This document shows, one piece after another, positions 23,578 through 36,250 of a DNA stretch of 54,419 bases (position 1 is its first letter; each line of letters begins with the position of its first letter). The notes below the pieces were generated by a model, which did no database searches, was not told where the DNA came from, and saw only the letters and a program-made list of their open reading frames with translations. Made by a program: the position numbers and the translations under genes. Source of the stretch: Spirochaetales bacterium (GTDB lineage: Bacteria > Spirochaetota > Spirochaetia > DSM-2461); contig JAQQAM010000141.1 of the NCBI GenBank assembly GCA_028532905.1, forward strand, positions 1 through 54,419, written 5' to 3'.

Positions 23578-24624
23578 ATGAAATTACCCAGTTCAAGCGC
23601 AACAGATCTGAACAAGAAAGATCTGACACATATGATCTCCATGCAGGATTTTTCCAAAAAAGAAATGGATGACATGATGGAACTCATGGATATGCTGAAA
23701 CAGGCCAGAAAAGAGAATGCCGTTCCTCAGCTGTTCAAAGGCAAATCCGTCGGTATGATTTTCGAAGCCGGTTCTACAAGAACAAGAGTTTCCTTTGAAA
23801 CTGCGGCCACCATCCTCGGCGGTCACGCTCTGTTCCTGTCTCCCAAAGATATTCACCTGGGGGGAAAAGAGTCCATCGATGATACAGCCCGTGTTCTTTC
23901 CAGAATGTGTGACATCATCATGGCCCGTACCAATGAGCCCGAAACAGTAGATGCACTGGCTAAAATGTCCACCGTTCCTGTTATCAACGGTCTGGATACA
24001 AGATTCCACCCCACACAGATGCTGGCGGATATCTATACCATTAAAGAACACATGCCTGAAGGGAAAACTCTTTCTGACCTGACACTGGCTTTTATGGGTG
24101 ATGCAACAGATGTTTGCCGTTCCCTCCTGCTCACCTGTACAAAATACGGAATGAAATTCAAACAGATTGGTCCTGTAAAATACCAGATGGAACAGGAATG
24201 GCTTGATCAGGCAGACAGAAACTGCAAGATCAGCGGCGGTTCCTATGAAATCACAGACGATGTGTCCAGGATTTCAGAATGTGACATCGTTTACGGAGAC
24301 AGCTTCTACTGGACAACTCAGTACGACGAAAAAGACGAAAGACTGGCAGCCTTCATGCCCGACTACGTGATCACAACCGAGCTGATGTCCAAAGCCAAAC
24401 CCGGTGCCATGCTCCTCCACTGTCTGCCTGCCAACGATCAGGAAGAGGTCACCAGAGACGCTCTGGAAGGGGAATACTCAGTAGCATTCGATGAAGCTGA
24501 AAACAGACTGACTGCACAGATGGCTATTCTGGTTTACTTCACACGCAAGTACATCGACCAGCCCAGTGCCGAAACCCTGAAAAAACACGAAGATAAAATC
24601 AACGCTTTCCTCGAAACCATCTAA
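23578..24624 (+). CDS. ptcA: Putrescine carbamoyltransferase
   Basis: 348 residues. Catalyses phosphorolysis of N-carbamoylputrescine to putrescine and carbamoyl phosphate, allowing ATP formation by carbamate kinase. Carbamoyl-phosphate loop STRTRVSFE at 66-74, [12 protein letters not shown], and HCLPA near residue 280. The run [18 protein letters not shown] and [12 protein letters not shown] resembles enterococcal PTC more than ornithine transcarbamylases. Neighbours settle it: agmatine deiminase and an APC antiporter follow. GGGAGGA ten bases upstream of the ATG. No carbamate kinase gene was found in the window, so the ATP-forming step must be encoded elsewhere. Confidence 0.88.
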
Positions 24625-24635
24625 GGAAGTACAAA

Positions 24636-25745
24636 ATGGCTAAAAGAATTGATTCAACACCGAAAAATGACGGTTACAGAATGCCCGGTGAGTTTGAGCC
24701 CCATGAAAAAACATGGATGCTCTGGCCCGAAAGAACTGATAACTGGAGAAACGGTGCCAAACCTGCACAGAAAGCATTTGTCCAGGTGGCAGCAGCCATC
24801 TCTCAGTTCGAACCTGTAGTGGTCGGTGTTTCTGCCGGTCAGTATCAGAATGCTCTGGAAATGCTTCCTGAAACTGTAAAAGTTGTTGAAATGAGCAATG
24901 ACGATTCCTGGATCAGAGACTGCGGACCCACTTTTGTTGTAAACGACAAGGGTGATATGCGGGGTGTGGACTGGGAATTCAATGCCTGGGGCGGACTGGT
25001 TGACGGTCTGTACTTTCCCTGGGACAAGGATGATCAGGTGGCCCGCAAGGTCTGTGAAATGGAAGGAGTTGATTCCTACAGAACCGAAGGTTTTGTGCTG
25101 GAAGGCGGTTCCATCCATGTTGACGGTGAAGGCACCTGTATTGTAACGGAAGCCTGTCTGCTCAGCGAAGGCAGAAATCCTCATATGACCAAAGAGGAGA
25201 TCACTCAGAAGCTGAAAGACTATCTGAATGTTGAAAAAGTGATCTGGCTGGAAGAGGGTATCTACCTGGATGAAACCAACGAACATGTTGATAACATCAT
25301 CCACTATGTAGCACCCGCTACCATCTGCCTGGCCTGGACCGATGACGAAAGTGATCCCCAGTATGCCATGAGCAAGAAAGCCTACGATCTGCTTTCCAAT
25401 GAAACAGATGCCAGGGGCCGGAAGTATGAGATTCACAAACTCTACATTCCCTCTCCCTCTATTGTTGTTACAAAAGAGGAGTCAGAAGGGGTAGATTCAG
25501 TGGAAGGAACTCTTCCCAGAGAAGAGGGCGACCGTCAGGCTGCCTCCTATGCCAACTTCCTGATCGTCAACGGCGGAGTTATCCTCCCGGTTTTCGACAG
25601 AGCAGAAGATGCCAAAGCGGTAGAGACGATTCAAAAGGCTCTTCCGAACCATAAAATTGTAACTGTACCCGGCCGGGAAATTGTTCTGGGCGGTGGAAAT
25701 GTCCACTGTATTACCCAGCAGCAGCCCAAAAGGTTAGTCAAGTAA
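24636..25745 (+). CDS. aguA: Agmatine deiminase
   Basis: 369 residues. Hydrolyses agmatine to N-carbamoylputrescine and ammonia. Guanidine-modifying fold: [45 protein letters not shown] (catalytic His region) and the C-terminal nucleophile in [13 protein letters not shown]. Length typical of AguA. AAGGAAG precedes ATG 24636, 11 bases after the ptcA stop. Supplies the substrate of the preceding enzyme. Followed by a stable hairpin that may partly terminate before the antiporter gene. Confidence 0.95.
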
Positions 25746-25752
25746 ATCTATT

Positions 25753-25783
25753 GAAATCAGAGGGGCAGGCTCCCTCTGATTTC
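25753..25783 (+). terminator. Hairpin between aguA and the antiporter gene
   Basis: Perfect 12-base stem GAAATCAGAGGG / CCCTCTGATTTC, 7-base loop, followed by GTTATTTTA. A weak T-run suggests partial termination or 3'-end protection inside the operon. Confidence 0.6.
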
Positions 25784-25805
25784 GTTATTTTATAAGGAGA
25801 GAATT

Positions 25806-27197
25806 TTGGAAGACGAAAAGAAAATGAGTTTCTTTCAGATCATCGCGTATCTGATCAGCGGTATTATTGTACTTGATACTTTTGCCGCTCCCGCGGAAAT
25901 GGGTCTTTCCGCCATCGGACTGTGGCTGACTGTCACAGTTTTCTTTATGATTCCCAACGGATTCATCAATGCAGAGCTCGGTGCCGCCTATCCGGACGGT
26001 CTGGTTTCCTGGGTTAAGGAATCCATGGGAAAACTGCATGCCACCATCGCCGGCTGGTTCTACTGGGTCAATGTCGGAATGTGGCTGCCTGCCGTATTTA
26101 TTGTATTCACTATCTGGATCGCCTACGCGTTCAACCTTTTTGAAACAGCATACTGGAACAACTCCGTCATGTTCGTAGTAGCCTTTGTTGCCAACTGGGG
26201 ACTGATTTTTACTGTGAGAAAAGGGATTGACCTTGGTGTCTTTCTGAGTACTCTGGGTACCATTATCAAAGTCGGTGTACTGCTGATTTTCGGTGGACTG
26301 GGTATTGTGTATGTGGCTCAGAACGGAATTGAAGGAACAGGTCTTACTGTCGGTTCTTTCTTCCCCAGTCTGGCTAATATCACCAGCATCGGTCTGGTAA
26401 CAGCCATTGTTTTCAACCTTCTGGGTCTGGAACTGATTGCCGCTATTACCGATCAGGTTAAAGGCGGAGCCAAAGCCCTGCCCAAGGCCATTATCGCCGG
26501 TTCCATCATTATGGGAGCCCTTTATATTTTCGGTACCTACGGTGTTCTTGCCGCAGCTACACCCGAAAACCTGGCAGATCCCCTTTTCATCGTAGATGCA
26601 CTGCCTAACGGTCTGTACAACCTGGTTGCCAATGTCGGCCTGCCTGAGTGGGTTTATTCTGTATTGATGGTTGGTGTTATCTTCACTCTGATGACCAATA
26701 TGATTGCCTGGATTATCGGTGCTTCCGAAATCCTGGAAGATGTAACTTTCGCACAGGATTTCAAAGTATTCCATGAGCGCCACCCTAAATACGGAACCCT
26801 TTCCAAGTCATACATTCTGCTTGGAATTATCTCTTCCGTATTCCTGGTTATCGGATACTTTGTTCTGGATGCCATTGAGGGCGAAGCCTTCTGGACAGTT
26901 CTGGCTCTGAGTATGGTTATCTTTATTTTTCCCTACATCTATCTTTCACCTGCTGTTGTCAAGCTGAGAAAAAGAGATGGAGCCGAGAGCAGAAGCTTCC
27001 TGATTCCCGGTGGAAATATCGGTATGTGGATCTCAGCCATTCTGAACTTTGTGTTCATTGCTCTGGCTGTTGTTATGCTCTTTGTTGATCAGTCTCCCCT
27101 GTATTACTCTGTTGTCATACCGGGTACAATTATCACAGCTATCATTCCTTTTGTTCTGCACAAGTTCAGCAGTGATAAAGAAGCTGTAGAAGCCTGA
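25806..27197 (+). CDS. APC family agmatine:putrescine antiporter (AguD-like)
   Basis: 463 residues from a TTG start with AAGGAG six bases upstream; no usable ATG is nearer. About 12 transmembrane helices of the amino acid-polyamine-organocation family: DTFAAPAEMGLSAIG in TM1, NAELGAAYPDG after TM2, and ELIAAITDQVKGGAKALPKA in the TM6-7 region. In agmatine operons of other bacteria a protein of this class swaps external agmatine for internal putrescine. That role is inferred from its place after ptcA-aguA. An even more general amino-acid exchanger cannot be excluded. Confidence 0.82.
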   Translation: MEDEKKMSFFQIIAYLISGIIVLDTFAAPAEMGLSAIGLWLTVTVFFMIPNGFINAELGAAYPDGLVSWVKESMGKLHATIAGWFYWVNVGMWLPAVFIVFTIWIAYAFNLFETAYWNNSVMFVVAFVANWGLIFTVRKGIDLGVFLSTLGTIIKVGVLLIFGGLGIVYVAQNGIEGTGLTVGSFFPSLANITSIGLVTAIVFNLLGLELIAAITDQVKGGAKALPKAIIAGSIIMGALYIFGTYGVLAAATPENLADPLFIVDALPNGLYNLVANVGLPEWVYSVLMVGVIFTLMTNMIAWIIGASEILEDVTFAQDFKVFHERHPKYGTLSKSYILLGIISSVFLVIGYFVLDAIEGEAFWTVLALSMVIFIFPYIYLSPAVVKLRKRDGAESRSFLIPGGNIGMWISAILNFVFIALAVVMLFVDQSPLYYSVVIPGTIITAIIPFVLHKFSSDKEAVEA

Positions 27198-27865: not shown

Positions 27866-27895
27866 GGGCGGCCTTTCTTGGGGCCGTCCTTTCAT
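27866..27895. terminator. Terminator between convergent operons
   Basis: Stem GGGCGGCC / GGCCGTCC (one G-U pair) with an 8-base loop, then TTTCATTCTT on the plus strand. The right flank overlaps the end of the opposing gene. Confidence 0.65.
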
Positions 27896-30057
27896 TCTTC
27901 TGCCCTATCATGGGCCATCAGTTTTTCTATTCCCGGAATGAGGGATTCCACATAGTCAGTCAGGTTGCTGATCTGATCTTTGGGAAAGCGGAAGCCTATG
28001 GCACCGGGATGTCCCCCTCCGTTTTCTATGTTGAACTCTTCCAGAATCAGTCTGAGGTCCAGATCCTTGTAACTCTGGCTTCTTCTGATTCTGAACTGAA
28101 TGAGGTCTGAATCCTGCTGATCATCATAATAGGCCACCAGGCTCAGCAACCGGCTATGTTCAGCCAGTGAATCTGCGGTATACCGGGCCACGGTGACAAT
28201 GGTTTCATGATCATAGAGCTTCCGCATCTCTTCGATTACATCGCGGGGAATAATAACAGTACCTATTTTATCGGAGATCTCCACCTTCTGTTTCATCATT
28301 CCCTGGAAACAGGCATCCTCCTGCCGGGACAGCTGCTGAAGTCCTTCAAAGACCTCATCCATTGTAGAGAAATTACTGGAGTTTTTCCGGGTGATATTGG
28401 TCAGAAGCTCACTGAACATGGTACTGAAGAGTTTGTAGAACCAGCGCTCCCGCCTGGTTTTCAGATATTTGCCCATTTTGGAATCACCGATAATCCCTGT
28501 GAGAATGGCCAGAACCAGATTGCGGGAGAAGAGTTCCTGCAGATTGTATTTTTCCGTCAGATCTTTTCTGTTTTTCAGTTTGAAGACCAGCATGCCCACC
28601 AGCTCACTGGCACTGGAGGCTTCATCCACCAGGCAGTAGCCTTTGTCGCCGCTGCATCTGCTGTCCGCCTCCAGATGGTGGTCCACTTCAATTTTCAGAA
28701 TCCTCTGATTACCGAAGATCTCCTCTTTCCCGGGGAAATCTTCCTGCATCCCGGGTTTGGGTGTATCCATAATAAAGACAGTTGATATTTTATGAGGAAT
28801 TTCTGCTGTGTTATAGAGAACCTGAATGGCATTGTACCGGCAGATATTGATCAGATACTGGTAGTTCTCATTGATCTTTTCGGGAATGAGTATGGAGGCG
28901 GACTTGGAAAACTTGTTGAGCAGCAAAGCCATGGCGATCATGGATGAGATACAGTCTTCATCGGGGTTTTTATGACCCGTTACAAGAAAGGAATCCCTTT
29001 GGTCAATGGCATCCAGAATATTGGCAATAACCTGGTTTCTTTTCCTGATGCTGGTGAAACTCCTTTTCCCCAGATCCCTTCCGGCCGGGTTTTTCCAGAG
29101 TCTGGCACAGCCCCGACCCTCTTCTTTGGCTTCGTAAAGGGCTTTATCGGCAAAGCTTTTCAGTTCCACCGCATCCTCTCCATGGTCGGGATAACAGGCA
29201 ATGCCGATGCTGGCACTCACAGTCTTCAGTTCTCCTTCAAGATTACTGAGAAGGCTTATCGTTTTTAATTCCTCGTTCAGGCGGTTGCAGAGTGAAAGAG
29301 CCAGTTGCCCGTCTGTCTCGGGCAGAATAAAGGTGAACTCATCTCCCCCGTAACGGGCCAGAAGATCCTCCTTCCTGAACACCTTGCGGAACAGGGGAAT
29401 GACTTCCAGCAGAACCCTGTCTCCCGTTTCCTGACCGTACAGGTTGTTCAGAGTTCCGAAATGATCCAGATCCACCATGACCACCGAAAGAATCTCACCT
29501 GTTGCTTCAGCCTCTGTGATCCGTTCCACAAGGGCTTCGTCCAGAAAGCGTCTGTTGTACAGGCCGGTAAAGTCGTCGGTAATAGCCCTGACGCGAGCCT
29601 GTTCTCCCCAGGTGACCATATCCGAAAGAAAGGCCGCCGTATTCTTGAGGCGGCTGGTTGTGGTGTTCAGCATGGGATGCATAATATGGATGCCGGCCCG
29701 GGGATTTTCCTTGATAAAGCGGTAAAAATCATCGGCTTTAAGACTGAGTACCCGGGTGTCTGTTTTGGGGGTACAGGTAGCGGACCGGGGGGACTGGTCA
29801 AAAATAGACATCTCTCCCAGGAAATTCCCTTCCGGGATTTCTGCAATTTCCAGTTCTTCGCCGTCGGGAGTATTCACCAGAATGGCGACTGTGCCGGACA
29901 GGACAATGTACATGACATCACCAAAATCCCCTTCGTGAAAAAGGGGCTGCCCTTTTAGGAAGGTTTCTTCATTCATATGGGAATACAGACTATTCCGATC
30001 TTTTTCAGAGAGTGTGGAGAGGATTTTGATGGATCTTAGAACATCTGCTGCATTCAT
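27892..30057 (-). CDS. cNMP-binding / GGDEF / DHH-DHHA1 multidomain second-messenger enzyme
   Basis: 721 residues. Residues ~10-120: cyclic-nucleotide-binding beta-roll (GDFGDVMYIVLSG, GNFLGEMSIF). Residues ~157-325: GGDEF domain with intact GGDEF at 237-241, metal-site D-L-D (196-198) and an inhibitory-site RKED at 228-231, exactly five residues before GGDEF. Residues ~340-715: DHH/DHHA1 phosphoesterase with GHKNPDEDC (361-369), MDTP (430-433), EVDHH (457-461), GDSK (524-527) and NGGGHPGAIGF (679-689). So an apparently active diguanylate cyclase is joined to a NrnA/GdpP-like hydrolase under a cNMP sensor. GdpP has a degenerate GGDEF and a PAS sensor instead. Overlaps the upstream gene by ATGA. 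Reaction of the DHH part (pGpG, c-di-AMP, nanoRNA) is not decidable here. Confidence 0.9.
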   Translation of the reverse strand: MNAADVLRSIKILSTLSEKDRNSLYSHMNEETFLKGQPLFHEGDFGDVMYIVLSGTVAILVNTPDGEELEIAEIPEGNFLGEMSIFDQSPRSATCTPKTDTRVLSLKADDFYRFIKENPRAGIHIMHPMLNTTTSRLKNTAAFLSDMVTWGEQARVRAITDDFTGLYNRRFLDEALVERITEAEATGEILSVVMVDLDHFGTLNNLYGQETGDRVLLEVIPLFRKVFRKEDLLARYGGDEFTFILPETDGQLALSLCNRLNEELKTISLLSNLEGELKTVSASIGIACYPDHGEDAVELKSFADKALYEAKEEGRGCARLWKNPAGRDLGKRSFTSIRKRNQVIANILDAIDQRDSFLVTGHKNPDEDCISSMIAMALLLNKFSKSASILIPEKINENYQYLINICRYNAIQVLYNTAEIPHKISTVFIMDTPKPGMQEDFPGKEEIFGNQRILKIEVDHHLEADSRCSGDKGYCLVDEASSASELVGMLVFKLKNRKDLTEKYNLQELFSRNLVLAILTGIIGDSKMGKYLKTRRERWFYKLFSTMFSELLTNITRKNSSNFSTMDEVFEGLQQLSRQEDACFQGMMKQKVEISDKIGTVIIPRDVIEEMRKLYDHETIVTVARYTADSLAEHSRLLSLVAYYDDQQDSDLIQFRIRRSQSYKDLDLRLILEEFNIENGGGHPGAIGFRFPKDQISNLTDYVESLIPGIEKLMAHDRAEE

Positions 30058-31088
30058 TCTGCAGCCCCTCCTTCTCCTCGAATGTCCTCGGGAAAAAGAA
30101 TGCGGTTTCCTCCCTGCTTCCGCCCTGTCAGGGGTAGTTCATGGGTTTTGGTTACCATCAATTCGGGATCAGTGTAATGGGCGGGGTAGAGGGAGACTCC
30201 GACACTGGCACTGAGACAGAAGGCCTTTCCCCGGGTGATTTCATCAAGATTTAGATGACTGATAAAGCTTCTGATTTCTTTTGCTTTCTGCTCTGCTTTC
30301 TCTCTGTCCGCACCCGGAAGAAGAACAGCCATGGCATTGCCCTTGTACCGGACCGTGCGGTTGTCATCAGCTATAAAATCCCTTAGCTGCCGGGCCATGA
30401 TTTTAATCACCCTGTCACCCGCATCATGGCCGTATTCATCATTCAGTTCCTTGAAGTTGTCAGGCTTGGAGATCAACAGGGAAAAGGGTGTCTCTGCATT
30501 GATATGCTTCCTGATCTGCTCCAGAAGAAAGGTGTCGTTGTAAATACCGGTCAGTTTGTCCCGGTACACCTGCTTTTTAAGCTCCTGGATAATGGGTGAG
30601 TTTTCCTTGATCAGGGCGTTGGCGCTTCTGATCCGGCTCGATATTCCTGCCAGAAGGGTATGGAGTATGCGGGCAGAAATTTGGGGATGGTCGTTTAGGA
30701 GATCGGTAAAGGCTGTACCGGTTTTCGGGAATACCAGTAGCTCCGATTCTTCTGTGGCATGAGCTGACACCTCCCGGATGCTTTCGGTGAGCATATCCAG
30801 TTCTCCAAAGCAGTTTCCCCTTATAAACCGGGCAATATCGATAACCGGAGCGTAGGGTTCCTGTTTTGTTATGAGTATTTCACCGCTTTTAACAATATAG
30901 AGGGAATCTCCGGGATTCCCGCTGGAGAATACAGAATCTCCTGCTTTATAGCTGATAATCTCGCTATGGTCAGAAATCACTTTCAGCTCGTGTTTCAGAA
31001 GAGAGGAAAACATGTCTGTATTTTTGAGAAGCTCTGTTTTTACAGGCATGGAATCATGATCCATAAGCTTGCGGAAATTATCCTCCAA
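30054..31088 (-). CDS. cNMP-binding protein with degenerate GGDEF domain
   Basis: 344 residues from a TTG at 31088; no good Shine-Dalgarno is seen, so the start is uncertain. Residues ~20-140: cyclic-nucleotide-binding domain (GNPGDSLYIVKSGE, GNCFGELDML). Residues ~170-335: GGDEF fold (YRDKLTGIYN, DEYGHDAGDRV, SASVGVSLYP), but the catalytic motif reads KGNAM at 249-253, the first metal Asp is Lys (SKPDNF), and no RxxD inhibitory site remains. It therefore cannot make c-di-GMP and is more likely a receptor or partner subunit. Same sensor layout as the downstream enzyme and translationally coupled to it (ATGA), suggesting a heteromeric pair. Confidence 0.85.
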   Translation of the reverse strand: MEDNFRKLMDHDSMPVKTELLKNTDMFSSLLKHELKVISDHSEIISYKAGDSVFSSGNPGDSLYIVKSGEILITKQEPYAPVIDIARFIRGNCFGELDMLTESIREVSAHATEESELLVFPKTGTAFTDLLNDHPQISARILHTLLAGISSRIRSANALIKENSPIIQELKKQVYRDKLTGIYNDTFLLEQIRKHINAETPFSLLISKPDNFKELNDEYGHDAGDRVIKIMARQLRDFIADDNRTVRYKGNAMAVLLPGADREKAEQKAKEIRSFISHLNLDEITRGKAFCLSASVGVSLYPAHYTDPELMVTKTHELPLTGRKQGGNRILFPEDIRGEGGAAE

Positions 31089-31144: not shown

Positions 31145-31531
31145 TTAGAATAAACTGTCTTTATCATTCAGAGACCGGGGAGGTCCGAGTATTTCCTTCC
31201 AGAGTACTGCCTGCTTCAGGGGCGGTAAATCTTTCAGGCGGGAGAGACTGTTCTTTTGTATCCCTTCACTGTCGTCTTCAGATAGTATGTCAGGCTCTTT
31301 CACCGGTATCTCGGGTGTGATGAACTTTATCGCCTTTTCGGGTGCACTGTCCCTATTGCCCAGTATCCGCCGGGCGACGGAACCGCTGTTTCCATATGCC
31401 GGATCTTCCCGGGGCGGTTTTTCCTCCTCTCCGCTGAGGCCGGCCAGCAGTTTCCTCAGGAAAGGATTGAATATAAAGACCAGAAGGATGAGGAGGGAGA
31501 TGATTCCGGTAATCAGATTATCAGCATTCAT
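31145..31531 (-). CDS. Small single-pass membrane protein in the nfeD-floA operon
   Basis: 128 residues, not recognised. One N-terminal transmembrane helix (LITGIISLLILLVFIF, residues ~6-22), then a hydrophilic cytoplasmic tail rich in Pro, Glu and Lys. Its ATG begins on the base after the floA stop, so it is translationally coupled to floA and may assist the flotillin scaffold. A function cannot be given. Confidence 0.6.
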   Translation of the reverse strand: MNADNLITGIISLLILLVFIFNPFLRKLLAGLSGEEEKPPREDPAYGNSGSVARRILGNRDSAPEKAIKFITPEIPVKEPDILSEDDSEGIQKNSLSRLKDLPPLKQAVLWKEILGPPRSLNDKDSLF

Positions 31532-32524
31532 CTACTTTTTCTCACCCTTTTCCAGGTCACCCCCTATGCTGTTGCGCATGGCTGTATCGGCTTTGATATT
31601 GTTCATTCTGTAATAATCCATTATGCCCAGATTTCCATTCCGGAAGGATTCAGAGATGGCTTTGGGGATTTCTGCTTCCGCCAGAACCACTTTAGCCCTG
31701 TTTTCCTGAACTTCCGCCATCATTTCCTGTTCTCTGGCCTTGGCCGCCGCCCGTCTCTGTTCCGCAACTGCCTGATAGCGCCGCATATCGGCTTCGGCCT
31801 GATCCGCCTGCAGTTTGGCTCCGATATTGGAACCCACATCAATATCGGCAATATCAATGGAGAGAATTTCAAAGGCTGTTCCCGCATCCAGCCCCTTGGC
31901 CAGTACTGTTTTTGAGATATTATCGGGATTTTCCAGCACATCCTTGTAGGCATCTGCCGAACCGATTGTGGTGACGATTCCCTCACCCACACGGGCGATT
32001 ATGGTTTCTTCCGTTGCCCCCCCTATGAGCCGTTCAATATTGGTGCGGACCGTGACTCTGGCCTTGGCCATCAGCTGTATACCGTCCTTGGCTACAGCGG
32101 ATATGGACTCTTTTCCCTTGGCCGGGTTGGGACAGTCAATCACCTTGGGATTAACGCAGGTTTTAACGGCTTCCAGAACATCCCGTCCCGCCAGGTCAAT
32201 GGCGGCTGCCTTGGAAAAGGAGAGGGCCAGTTTTGCCTTGTTCGCCGCAATTAGGGCCTTACTGACCCGGATGATGTCTCCTCCCGCCAGAAGATGGGTC
32301 TCCAGAAGATCCGAATCCATGTCCAGGCCGGCTTTGACCAGCATGATACGGCTCTCCACAACTGTGCGGGAACGGACCTTTCTGATCCACATACCGATGA
32401 TCCGGCTCATCTTGACGGGAGCTCCTGAAATCAACGCCCGGAACCAGAGCCCGAAGAACATGATGAAGACCATCAGTATCAGAAGACTGAAGAGTCCGAT
32501 GATAATATACAGTGCAATAATCAT
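31532..32524 (-). CDS. floA: Flotillin-like protein FloA
   Basis: 330 residues. Short bacterial flotillin (YqfA/FloA type): N-terminal membrane hairpin (residues ~3-30), SPFH/PHB-like core ([22 protein letters not shown]), [29 protein letters not shown] in the conserved C-terminal half (read as two parts), then an Ala/Glu/Arg-rich coiled coil ([20 protein letters not shown]). Flotillins organise membrane microdomains. Follows nfeD with a two-base gap, the common nfeD-floA order. Confidence 0.95.
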
Positions 32525-32525
32525 A

Positions 32526-34004
32526 TCAACCTCTTTTGACCACGATGCGCAGTCCCTCTCTCCGAATCACTCTTACTTCTGTGTTTCTTTCAATATAATC
32601 ACCCTCAGTCTGAACAATCATCACCTGACCGCTGAAATCAGCTTTCCCCACAGGTCTCAGGTCGGTGAGAGTCACAGCTCTGTCTCCCGTTTCGATCTCT
32701 TTTTCTTCCGATTCCTCTTTGACCGCGGGAGGGGGAGATTCGCTTTTCAGTACCAGCCTGCCGAATAGATGGGAGTGAGGGAGGGTAATCATCAGTACGC
32801 CGATCAGGGCCAGAGACCCTACGAGACTAAGGGAGACAAAGAGCAGGTTCCTTCTGAACAGATCCCACTGCCAGGAGAACTCGGGTATTATAAAATCCTG
32901 ACGGGTCAGCACCAGAGACAGAAGTATGAGGATAATGCCGCTGACTCCGGTAATCCCGAATCCCGGTATGAGGAAAATCTCCACAAGCAGGAGAATCACA
33001 CCCAGCATAAAGAGGATCAGCTCCAGAGATCCCAGGTTTCCGATTAGGGTACTGGAGGCAAACACAACGGCAAAGCAGATCAGGGCAATGGTTCCGGGAA
33101 ATCCGAATCCCGGGCTTGTAATCTCCATGTACAGGGCCACCAGTCCCACCATTACCAGCAGGCTGGCCACCGCAGCAGAACTCAGAAAGGCGATGATCCA
33201 GTCGGCATTGGTCTTTTCCAGAATCACCAGAGCGTCCTGATTCACAGAGAGCTGTTCATACAGATCAACAGCTCCGCTGAGTGTGGCTTCGGATACGCCG
33301 TACTTTTCCATCTCCCCGGCCGTCAGAGTCAGCAGTTTCCCCGCAGCAGATACCAGTTTCCCTTCTGTCAGTTCTGTTCCGCTCATCCTCTCCAGAGCGC
33401 TGATTTCATCCAGTGTCATCAGAAAGAGGCCGTCCTCAGTTTCCACTTCGTAGAGCTCGATGTCCTGATCCACCATGGCAAGAGCCACAGAGGGGGGATA
33501 GCCGTTCTTTTCTGCCAGTGCCGCCATCTGCCCCCGAACCGCACTGACCGTCTTTTCTTCGGCCATTACCATCCCTTCCGGGCTCTGATAGACCGGCGCT
33601 GCGGCTCCGATGGAGGTTCCTGCATCCATATAGATCTTATCGCATGAGAAGGATATGAGGGCTCCTGCCGACCAGCTGACCCCGGTTCCCCCCGGACCTG
33701 AGGTGATATAGGCCACCGTGTCAGTCCAGTGTACCGATCCGATAAGGGAGGTAATCTCCAGGGCTGAATCCACTCTGCCCCCGAAGGTGTTCAGTTCAAA
33801 TATGACAAGCGAGGCTTCCGCAGCCTCAGCTTTCAGGATGCTTCTTTTCAGGAAAATCACAAGGAAGGGAGTTATTTCTTCATTTACCGGAATGACAAAG
33901 ACAGGCCCCCGGGCATCTGAGCTGTTATCCGGTACAGACCAGAGCAAAACGGAAAGAAAGAGGAAAGAAAAAAGAATGGTCTGGAAGATGATTCTTCTGA
34001 ACAT
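32526..34004 (-). CDS. nfeD: NfeD-family membrane serine protease (long form)
   Basis: About 492 residues from ATG 34004, with AGGGG upstream; an in-frame start at 34052 adds a poor leader. Signal peptide ([19 protein letters not shown]), then a ClpP/crotonase-like serine protease domain: [13 protein letters not shown], the nucleophile Ser in [13 protein letters not shown], and a Lys in [12 protein letters not shown] as likely base. Then four or so transmembrane helices and a C-terminal OB-fold NfeD domain ([20 protein letters not shown], here split: [20 protein letters not shown]). Long NfeD proteins cleave membrane substrates and are genetically linked to flotillins, as here. Confidence 0.93.
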
Positions 34005-34081
34005 ACCAATCCCCTGTTGTTTAAATTTAGTACATCCGGGAGCTGGTGTCAAAATTCCGCATCTTTACAGCAAATTGAAAA

Positions 34082-35014: not shown

Positions 35015-36250
35015 TTACCAGTCCATTTTCATCACTGTTTCCAGTATTTCCATCCTGTCCAGACTGGTGTCGTTGGCACTGACTGCCACAACCAGATTCC
35101 GTTCCGGCACAAAGGCCAGAAGAGCGGCAAAACCGGGCCCTCCGCCGCTGTGGCCGTAGATCCTGTACCCCTTCATCTTCCAGGCCTTCAGGCCGTATCC
35201 GTACTGTTTAATCCTGCTGTAGCGCCTCTCCAGTTCTTTCATGGTATAGGGCTTCTGCATCCCGGCAATGCTCTCTATCCCGATGGCCGTACCGTCTTCC
35301 AGCCGCCGTGATGTCATCAGGGCATAGCCGAAGCGGGCCAGGTCTTCGCTTGTACCATTAAGGCCTGTGGAGGGGCTGTAATCCGTGTTCACCGGCATAA
35401 ACCACATCCTGTGATCTTCAGTTTCCCGGACCAGCTGCTTCATGAATCCTCTTTTTCCGTAAATCATCAGAAGGGGAGTGAACGCATTGATTCTGTGCTG
35501 GGAACCGGTTGCCAGGTGCTGTTCCATGCCGGAGGTGCCGGAAAACCCGGTTTTCTCCATGGAAAGGGGCTTTAGAATAGTCTCTTCAATGTAGTTCTCA
35601 TAGGCCGTTCCTGTAATCTTTTCAATGATGACACCCAGAACGATGAAACCCGTATTGCTGTATCGGACCCGGCTGCCGGGGGTGAATTCCACAACCCTGT
35701 ACTCCTCTATCATCTTCTGATTGAAGAAATCAGTCTGATTCGGAGGAGCTTCCCGAGAGCTGTGAATCCAGTTCAGTCCTTCCGGGATGATATCAGGCAG
35801 TCCGGACTCATGGTTCAGAAGCTGATCTATTGTTATGCTGACCCCTTCACCCTCTTTATTGACTGTGTTGTAGTCGGGGATGTATTTTTTCACCGGATCA
35901 CTGAGGCTGAGTTTTCCTTCATCCGCCAGTTTGAGAATGGCCGCAGACGTGAAGAGTTTGGTCACCGAGTACCAGGGGTAGACGGTGGAGGTCCGGGCAG
36001 GACGGCTTAAAGGAGCATCGGCCATACCGAAGGCTTTGGAATAGGTCAGCTTGTCACCTTTGAGTACAGTCAGACTCAGGGAGGGGGGTGTGGCATTTTC
36101 TGTGATCTGTTCTAAATAGAGATCCAGTTCGGCCTCCGTGCTTATTCTTCGGGAGGCTCCCGGCTGCCGGGGCTTCAGTATAAGCAGCAGAACCAGGGTC
36201 AGTATTATCAGTCCGGCCGGAACAGCCAGTACGATCAGAATCTTTTTCAT
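35015..36250 (-). CDS. Beta-lactamase-fold serine hydrolase (class C/PBP-like)
   Basis: 411 residues. N-terminal membrane anchor or signal (LIVLAVPAGLIILTLVLLLIL). Penicillin-binding-type catalytic motifs in order: S-x-x-K in YSVTKLF, Y-x-N in RYSNTGF, and H-x-G in GHSGGGPG. Such periplasmic or membrane-anchored proteins include D-Ala-D-Ala peptidases, esterases and class C beta-lactamases; motif spacing fits the broad beta-lactamase-related (Pfam Beta-lactamase) family and not a specific resistance enzyme. No regulator of the AmpR type is near. The gene starts at ATG 36250. Confidence 0.85.
   Translation of the reverse strand: MKKILIVLAVPAGLIILTLVLLLILKPRQPGASRRISTEAELDLYLEQITENATPPSLSLTVLKGDKLTYSKAFGMADAPLSRPARTSTVYPWYSVTKLFTSAAILKLADEGKLSLSDPVKKYIPDYNTVNKEGEGVSITIDQLLNHESGLPDIIPEGLNWIHSSREAPPNQTDFFNQKMIEEYRVVEFTPGSRVRYSNTGFIVLGVIIEKITGTAYENYIEETILKPLSMEKTGFSGTSGMEQHLATGSQHRINAFTPLLMIYGKRGFMKQLVRETEDHRMWFMPVNTDYSPSTGLNGTSEDLARFGYALMTSRRLEDGTAIGIESIAGMQKPYTMKELERRYSRIKQYGYGLKAWKMKGYRIYGHSGGGPGFAALLAFVPERNLVVAVSANDTSLDRMEILETVMKMDW

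Follow-up and report, generated by a model that had tools for sequence, protein, structure and literature searches.

A conserved spirochaete gene pair predicted to link a pseudo-cyclase with a diguanylate cyclase fused to a DHH-DHHA1 hydrolase

In Spirochaetota, a gene for a GGDEF protein that lacks catalytic residues (PART) is kept next to a gene for a cyclase with intact catalytic motifs (CG), which can be fused to a complete DHH-DHHA1 phosphoesterase (CG-DHH). We consider it reasonably probable that PART and CG-DHH form a heteromeric nucleotide-signalling module, with a cyclic mononucleotide (cNMP) input, a cyclase output, a pseudo-cyclase partner and a dinucleotide hydrolase. The pair was found on contig JAQQAM010000141.1 of a Spirochaetales bacterium (assembly GCA_028532905.1), and this whole stretch of 54,419 nt is here called the window.

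A coupled gene pair and its surroundings

The pair consists of two genes on the minus strand:

30054..31088, minus strand: PART, cNMP-like domain and degenerate GGDEF pseudo-cyclase, 344 aa from a TTG start
27892..30057, minus strand: CG-DHH, cNMP_binding, intact GGDEF, DHH and DHHA1, 721 aa, conserved in Spirochaetota

PART is the first gene and is coupled to CG-DHH, the second, by an ATGA overlap at 30057-30054. A GGAGG sequence coincides in part with this TTG, and the ATG at 31064 (336 aa) is the likelier start of PART. Both reading frames, the overlap and all motifs named in a preliminary description of this DNA were confirmed by Pfam and by reading of the sequence. Chance is ruled out as an explanation, since the cassette is kept in many Spirochaetota genomes.

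A FloA flotillin-like protein is encoded beside an NfeD1b-type protein at 31145-34052 (minus strand), and a 128-aa hypothetical protein is encoded at 31145-31531, between FloA and PART. Two genomes of the same genus (L039 and L040) show this arrangement near PART as well, and the others read do not; FloA/NfeD was therefore rejected as a part of the system. At 35015-36250 (minus strand) lies a gene for a protein of the beta-lactamase fold (PF00144), whose homologue in L039 sits between the 128-aa protein and PART. On the plus strand, at 23578-27197, a putrescine carbamoyltransferase-like gene (455 bits, against a cut-off of 500), an agmatine deiminase gene and an amino-acid permease gene stand in series and resemble an agmatine deiminase pathway cluster.

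Sensor and cyclase domains of CG and PART

The following features of the two proteins were located, all on the minus strand:

29704..29967: cNMP-binding domain of CG-DHH (residues 31-118), PF00027, E 1.4e-23, with phosphate-binding Glu82 and Arg91 kept
29581..29703: two successive predicted helices of CG-DHH (119-139 and 141-159) at the sensor-cyclase joint (AlphaFold2, pLDDT 50-89)
29110..29586: GGDEF domain of CG-DHH (158-316), PF00990, E 1.8e-42
29365..29376: RxxD of CG-DHH (RKED, 228-231), candidate inhibitory site, by sequence reading
29335..29349: GGDEF motif of CG-DHH (237-241), by sequence reading
30696..30956: cNMP-binding-like domain of PART (45-131), PF00027, E 2.1e-15
30105..30566: degenerate GGDEF domain of PART (175-328), PF00990, E 3.9e-28
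30465..30467: Lys208 of PART, replacing the first metal-binding Asp (Lys in 57/57)
30330..30344: KGNAM at the GGDEF position of PART, by sequence reading

The cNMP domain of CG-DHH starts about 30 residues from the N-terminus and has both the Pfam match and the phosphate-binding Glu and Arg that characterise a CAP-like domain. These two residues are kept throughout the CG family (Glu in 56/58, Arg in 58/58). In PART of the window both are present, and the Arg is found in 41 of 54 relatives. The earlier idea that the two proteins carry the same sensor thus holds only in part, the Arg being less strictly kept in PART than in CG. The two helices that follow the sensor of CG-DHH may serve in dimerisation. 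As the AlphaFold2 model of full-length CG-DHH reached a pTM of 0.48, it was not used for domain docking.

To describe the cyclase, 60 CG sequences were surveyed, of which 59 were readable at GG[DE]EF. The motif is intact in 58 of these, and the metal, guanine and phosphate contact residues of diguanylate cyclases are kept in the family. The sole exception, from a Treponema MAG (L111), reads GSEKF. This fused CG-DHH (L111, 5011-7170) retains the core DHH and GGGH motifs, a hint that the hydrolase may be able to outlive the cyclase. In CG-DHH itself the string RKED-LLARY-GGDEF places the end of RxxD five residues ahead of GGDEF, and the preliminary description had proposed a self-limiting enzyme with an I-site at this position. 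Although RxxD is present in the window protein, it occurs in just 36 of 59 CGs. Self-limitation is therefore no family property, and the I-site was rejected as a defining feature.

In PART, Pfam detects cNMP_binding and GGDEF only, which is in agreement with the earlier portrayal of a partner that has a dead GGDEF and no hydrolase; the motifs of the window protein read KPDNFK...KGNAM. Residue roles in GGDEF domains are assigned after PleD, and Lys208 occupies what we take to be the position of PleD Asp327. A Lys replaces this first metal-binding Asp in all 57 PART sequences, none of which has an intact GG[DE]EF (eleven read RGDEF). The guanine-contact Asn is kept in 56 of 57, and so is the guanine-contact Asp. 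Because catalysis is lost while the pocket is strictly conserved, the function that PART has retained would be nucleotide binding.

PART is paired with CG

In 66 of the 75 places, the gene immediately before CG on the same strand is PART, and at least two of the nine exceptions are at contig ends (G021 and G024). Moreover, seven genomes (G077, G164, G206, G229, G255, G285 and G302) have the PART and CG matches within a single open frame of 660-690 aa. The single-frame protein of G077, whose whole sequence was examined, begins with a dead half and ends with an intact one. This gene pairing, together with the natural fusions, suggests that PART and CG associate in a complex, and the earlier proposal that the dead partner works with the cyclase is very probably right.

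How PART would act within such a complex can be read in more than one way. A variant of our preferred explanation, which we regard as tentative, is that PART, as a dominant regulator, titrates CG into inactive heterodimers from which a ligand would free CG to form active homodimers. It would fit a protein that is devoid of catalytic residues in 57/57 sequences and is nevertheless kept beside CG. Release by simple dissociation is, however, unlikely where PART and CG share a single chain, even if a rearrangement within a 2:2 complex could achieve the same there.

Distribution and fusion state of the module

Strong matches to the DHH region were found in 30 of 98 relatives searched, and all 30 have PART. 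In a further six, PART was found but DHH gave no match, which counts against the module, and 62 have neither (Fisher P-value for co-occurrence 1.4e-19, with kinship ignored). The PART-CG pair and the DHH gene are also both present in G049 and G069, although at separate places there. The search for this architecture and its co-occurring partner thus revealed a Spirochaetota-wide module. In a wider phylum sample of 36 genomes chosen for a DHH match, nine, among them G149, gave no PART match, and five of these nine carry a distant DHH homologue only. A more distant DHH clade (L170-L174, match E about 1e-50) was seen in other families of the phylum; one of its members, L173, is adjoined by a weak CG-like protein.

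Scanning genome contigs for DHH yielded 80 loci, 79 of them labelled as spirochaetes or Treponema and one as 'uncultured bacterium'. PART is followed by a fused CG-DHH at 27 of these loci, PART, CG and DHH are three genes at 18, DHH stands alone at 30, and five are of other or truncated arrangement. A DHH tree was then built from the scanned loci, the window and added rows. Among its 82 rows, CG and DHH are fused in 28 and DHH is a separate neighbouring gene in 20, so that the two are fused or adjacent in 48 of the 82 sampled loci; DHH is alone in 34. This quick tree, which came with long-branch warnings, implies 16 state changes in all, of which at least seven for the fused label are forced by well-supported branches. 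On the basis of these changes, fusion and separation of CG and DHH took place repeatedly. The cNMP-GGDEF-DHH-DHHA1 fusion emphasised by the preliminary description does recur across Spirochaetota, but other states exist beside it (DHH as a separate neighbour, unlinked or alone), and fusion is therefore not essential.

A role of its own is indicated for DHH by G149, which keeps a standalone homologue (L161, 7785-8993) and has no PART or CG match. This genome has 1,139,633 bases, the size of the T. pallidum genome, and its inventory comprises one DAC (c-di-AMP cyclase), one NrnA-like protein, RecJ and PgpH. At the DHH-alone loci we looked for a conserved neighbour that would explain the standalone gene; none was found there, as the neighbours vary. 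The exception is termite-gut Treponema, in which standalone DHH genes share an envelope-gene setting.

The DHH-DHHA1 domain

The hydrolase part of CG-DHH comprises, all on the minus strand:

28555..28989: DHH domain (357-501), PF01368, E 7e-12, with a fold match
28954-28974: DHH motif I, GHKNPDED (His362-Asp368), with His362, Asp366 and Asp368 invariant in 78 sequences
28675-28683: DHH motif III, residues 459-461, invariant in 78 sequences
27937..28137: DHHA1 domain (641-707), PF02272, E 9e-5, 23.3 bits, with NGGGH at 28009-28023

Motif II corresponds to D431, and motif IV to D525, just past the end of the Pfam match; the strings DTPKP, VDHH, GIIGDS and NGGGH are present as well. In 78 DHH sequences His362, Asp366, Asp368, Asp431, Asp459, His460, His461, Asp525 and GGGH are invariant. 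The Pfam score of DHHA1 (23-25 bits) is slightly below the cut-off of 25.9, and the assignment was accepted nonetheless because the predicted structure matches the DHH-DHHA1 fold. Specifically, the model of the DHH region (pLDDT 85.8) matches complete DHH-DHHA1 enzymes across nearly its full length. Intact cyclase and complete hydrolase are thus united in one chain, as had been described, with all domains and motifs present.

In sequence-profile comparison, TmPDE, the GdpP catalytic domain and Borrelia DhhP (9r7o) came nearest among solved structures. Structural comparison returned NrnA/Pde2, Rv2837c, TmPDE, DhhP and GdpP, all with Z 19-22. Since several of these alignments gave a low rmsd over the DHH half alone and about 19 Å over the whole chain, the model is not to be trusted as to how the DHH half sits relative to the DHHA1 half. 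The protein has the DHH-DHHA1 fold, the H/D metal site and the GGGH of the NrnA/DhhP fold class, and its score against the NCBIfam NrnA equivalog is 14.7 bits, with a cut-off of 350.

The putative substrate of DHH

Our leading guess, held with low confidence, is that DHH acts on a linear dinucleotide (pGpG/pApA), the main rival being c-di-AMP. The linear dinucleotide is favoured because a search for Orn gave no match in 10/10 inventoried genomes and because PgpH is present in 14/15 genomes. PgpH is a c-di-AMP phosphodiesterase and can open c-di-AMP. NrnA and NrnB hydrolyse pGpG (PMC6256023). Confidence is low because other DHH proteins could clear linear dinucleotides; such proteins are present in each inventoried genome, and the window's genome has eight DHH matches.

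It is possible, though doubtful, that DHH cleaves c-di-AMP in the manner of GdpP, so that c-di-GMP synthesis would be coupled to c-di-AMP breakdown in a cross-talk of three nucleotides. About 150 residues of the DHH profile can be aligned with the GdpP catalytic domain, with DTxKP and ASSxxEL stretches in common, and this domain has the highest identity to the DHH model (19-20%) among the Foldseek matches listed. On the other hand, NrnA/Pde2-type enzymes rank slightly above GdpP in structural alignment, and with PgpH another c-di-AMP phosphodiesterase is already at hand in nearly all genomes. DAC, found in 90 of 98 relatives, in the window's genome and in 10/10 inventoried genomes, is consistent with c-di-AMP as substrate, but its near-universal presence among the sampled relatives does not discriminate, and it was rejected as a clue. 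GdpP, the closest architecture, acts on c-di-AMP (PMC6170606).

A general nanoRNase or pAp phosphatase, merely positioned or regulated by its fusion to a cyclase, seems an unlikely description of DHH. The NrnA-type fold of the model, the lack of a detected Orn in the 10 genomes, and the many genomes where the gene is alone among varied neighbours would all suit such an enzyme. However, the same genomes encode other NrnA-like DHH proteins, the NrnA score is far under its cut-off, and the recurrent link between DHH and a cyclase points to a function in signalling.

Proposed mechanism

In the preferred module, cAMP or cGMP bound by the cNMP domain of CG would switch its GGDEF domain, the predicted diguanylate cyclase. 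The window's genome encodes nine class III cyclases and 15 EAL proteins. PART would probably contact CG via the cNMP domains with their following helices and via the GGDEF domains. With its guanine pocket kept and a Lys at the first catalytic-metal ligand, PART is most likely to bind, but not turn over, a guanine nucleotide and may thereby set whether CG can form an active pair. The DHH-DHHA1 part would be a two-metal phosphodiesterase whose dinucleotide substrate is most likely linear (pGpG and/or pApA). Tethered to the cyclase or co-expressed with it, this enzyme would bring the making and the removal of dinucleotides under one common input. Very improbable, in our view, is an asymmetric cyclase in which GTP bound by PART, with Lys in place of a metal, is delivered to the single site of CG, and in which pppGpG/pGpG or strictly gated c-di-GMP is produced and then processed by DHH; if true, this would be a built-in make-and-break cycle.

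Comparison with known systems

No description of a PART/CG-DHH module was found in the open-access literature, to which the search was confined. Membership of a defence system was rejected, as only weak matches of the cNMP domains to Pycsar-type proteins were seen. The module would join cyclic mononucleotide input, c-di-GMP output and dinucleotide removal in one conserved spirochaete unit, and it would be a clear example of an active cyclase under the control of a conserved pseudo-cyclase. Its DHH subfamily, without prior characterisation, is present in Treponema, including the 1.14-Mb genome G149.

Like GdpP/YybT, CG-DHH has a GGDEF domain followed by DHH-DHHA1 in one chain, with DTxKP and DHH stretches in common. 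GdpP/YybT is, however, a c-di-AMP phosphodiesterase of PAS, degenerate GGDEF, DHH and DHHA1, whereas CG-DHH gave no PAS match, has a cNMP sensor instead and keeps its GGDEF intact, as do nearly all relatives. In addition, CG-DHH has a conserved dead-GGDEF partner, and DHH also occurs as a separate gene. The distinction from GdpP drawn earlier was therefore upheld, and filing CG-DHH as GdpP was rejected since two defining features are lacking. The standalone DHH-DHHA1 enzymes NrnA, DhhP, TmPDE and Rv2837c share the fold and metal-site residues of CG-DHH, which differs from them as a distinct subfamily, far under the NrnA cut-off and linked to a cyclase pair.

For the sensor, Bd1971 of Bdellovibrio, in which a cNMP domain gates an EAL enzyme (PMC6717892), is alike in having such a domain wired to c-di-GMP metabolism; Bd1971 degrades c-di-GMP, whereas the output of CG-DHH would be a cyclase and DHH. 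Lcd1 of Leptospira, a cAMP-activated diguanylate cyclase (cited in PMC8846402), similarly brings cAMP input to a GGDEF domain in a spirochaete. It senses cAMP via a GAF domain, and that source mentions neither a DHH domain nor a pseudo-cyclase partner. The pseudo-cyclase itself is reminiscent of CC_3396 and FimX, where a degenerate GGDEF serves as a GTP sensor (PMC12943098, PMC8846402) and a dead domain with a nucleotide pocket regulates another domain. In contrast to these proteins, PART has no EAL domain, and any action that it has would be on a separate cyclase.
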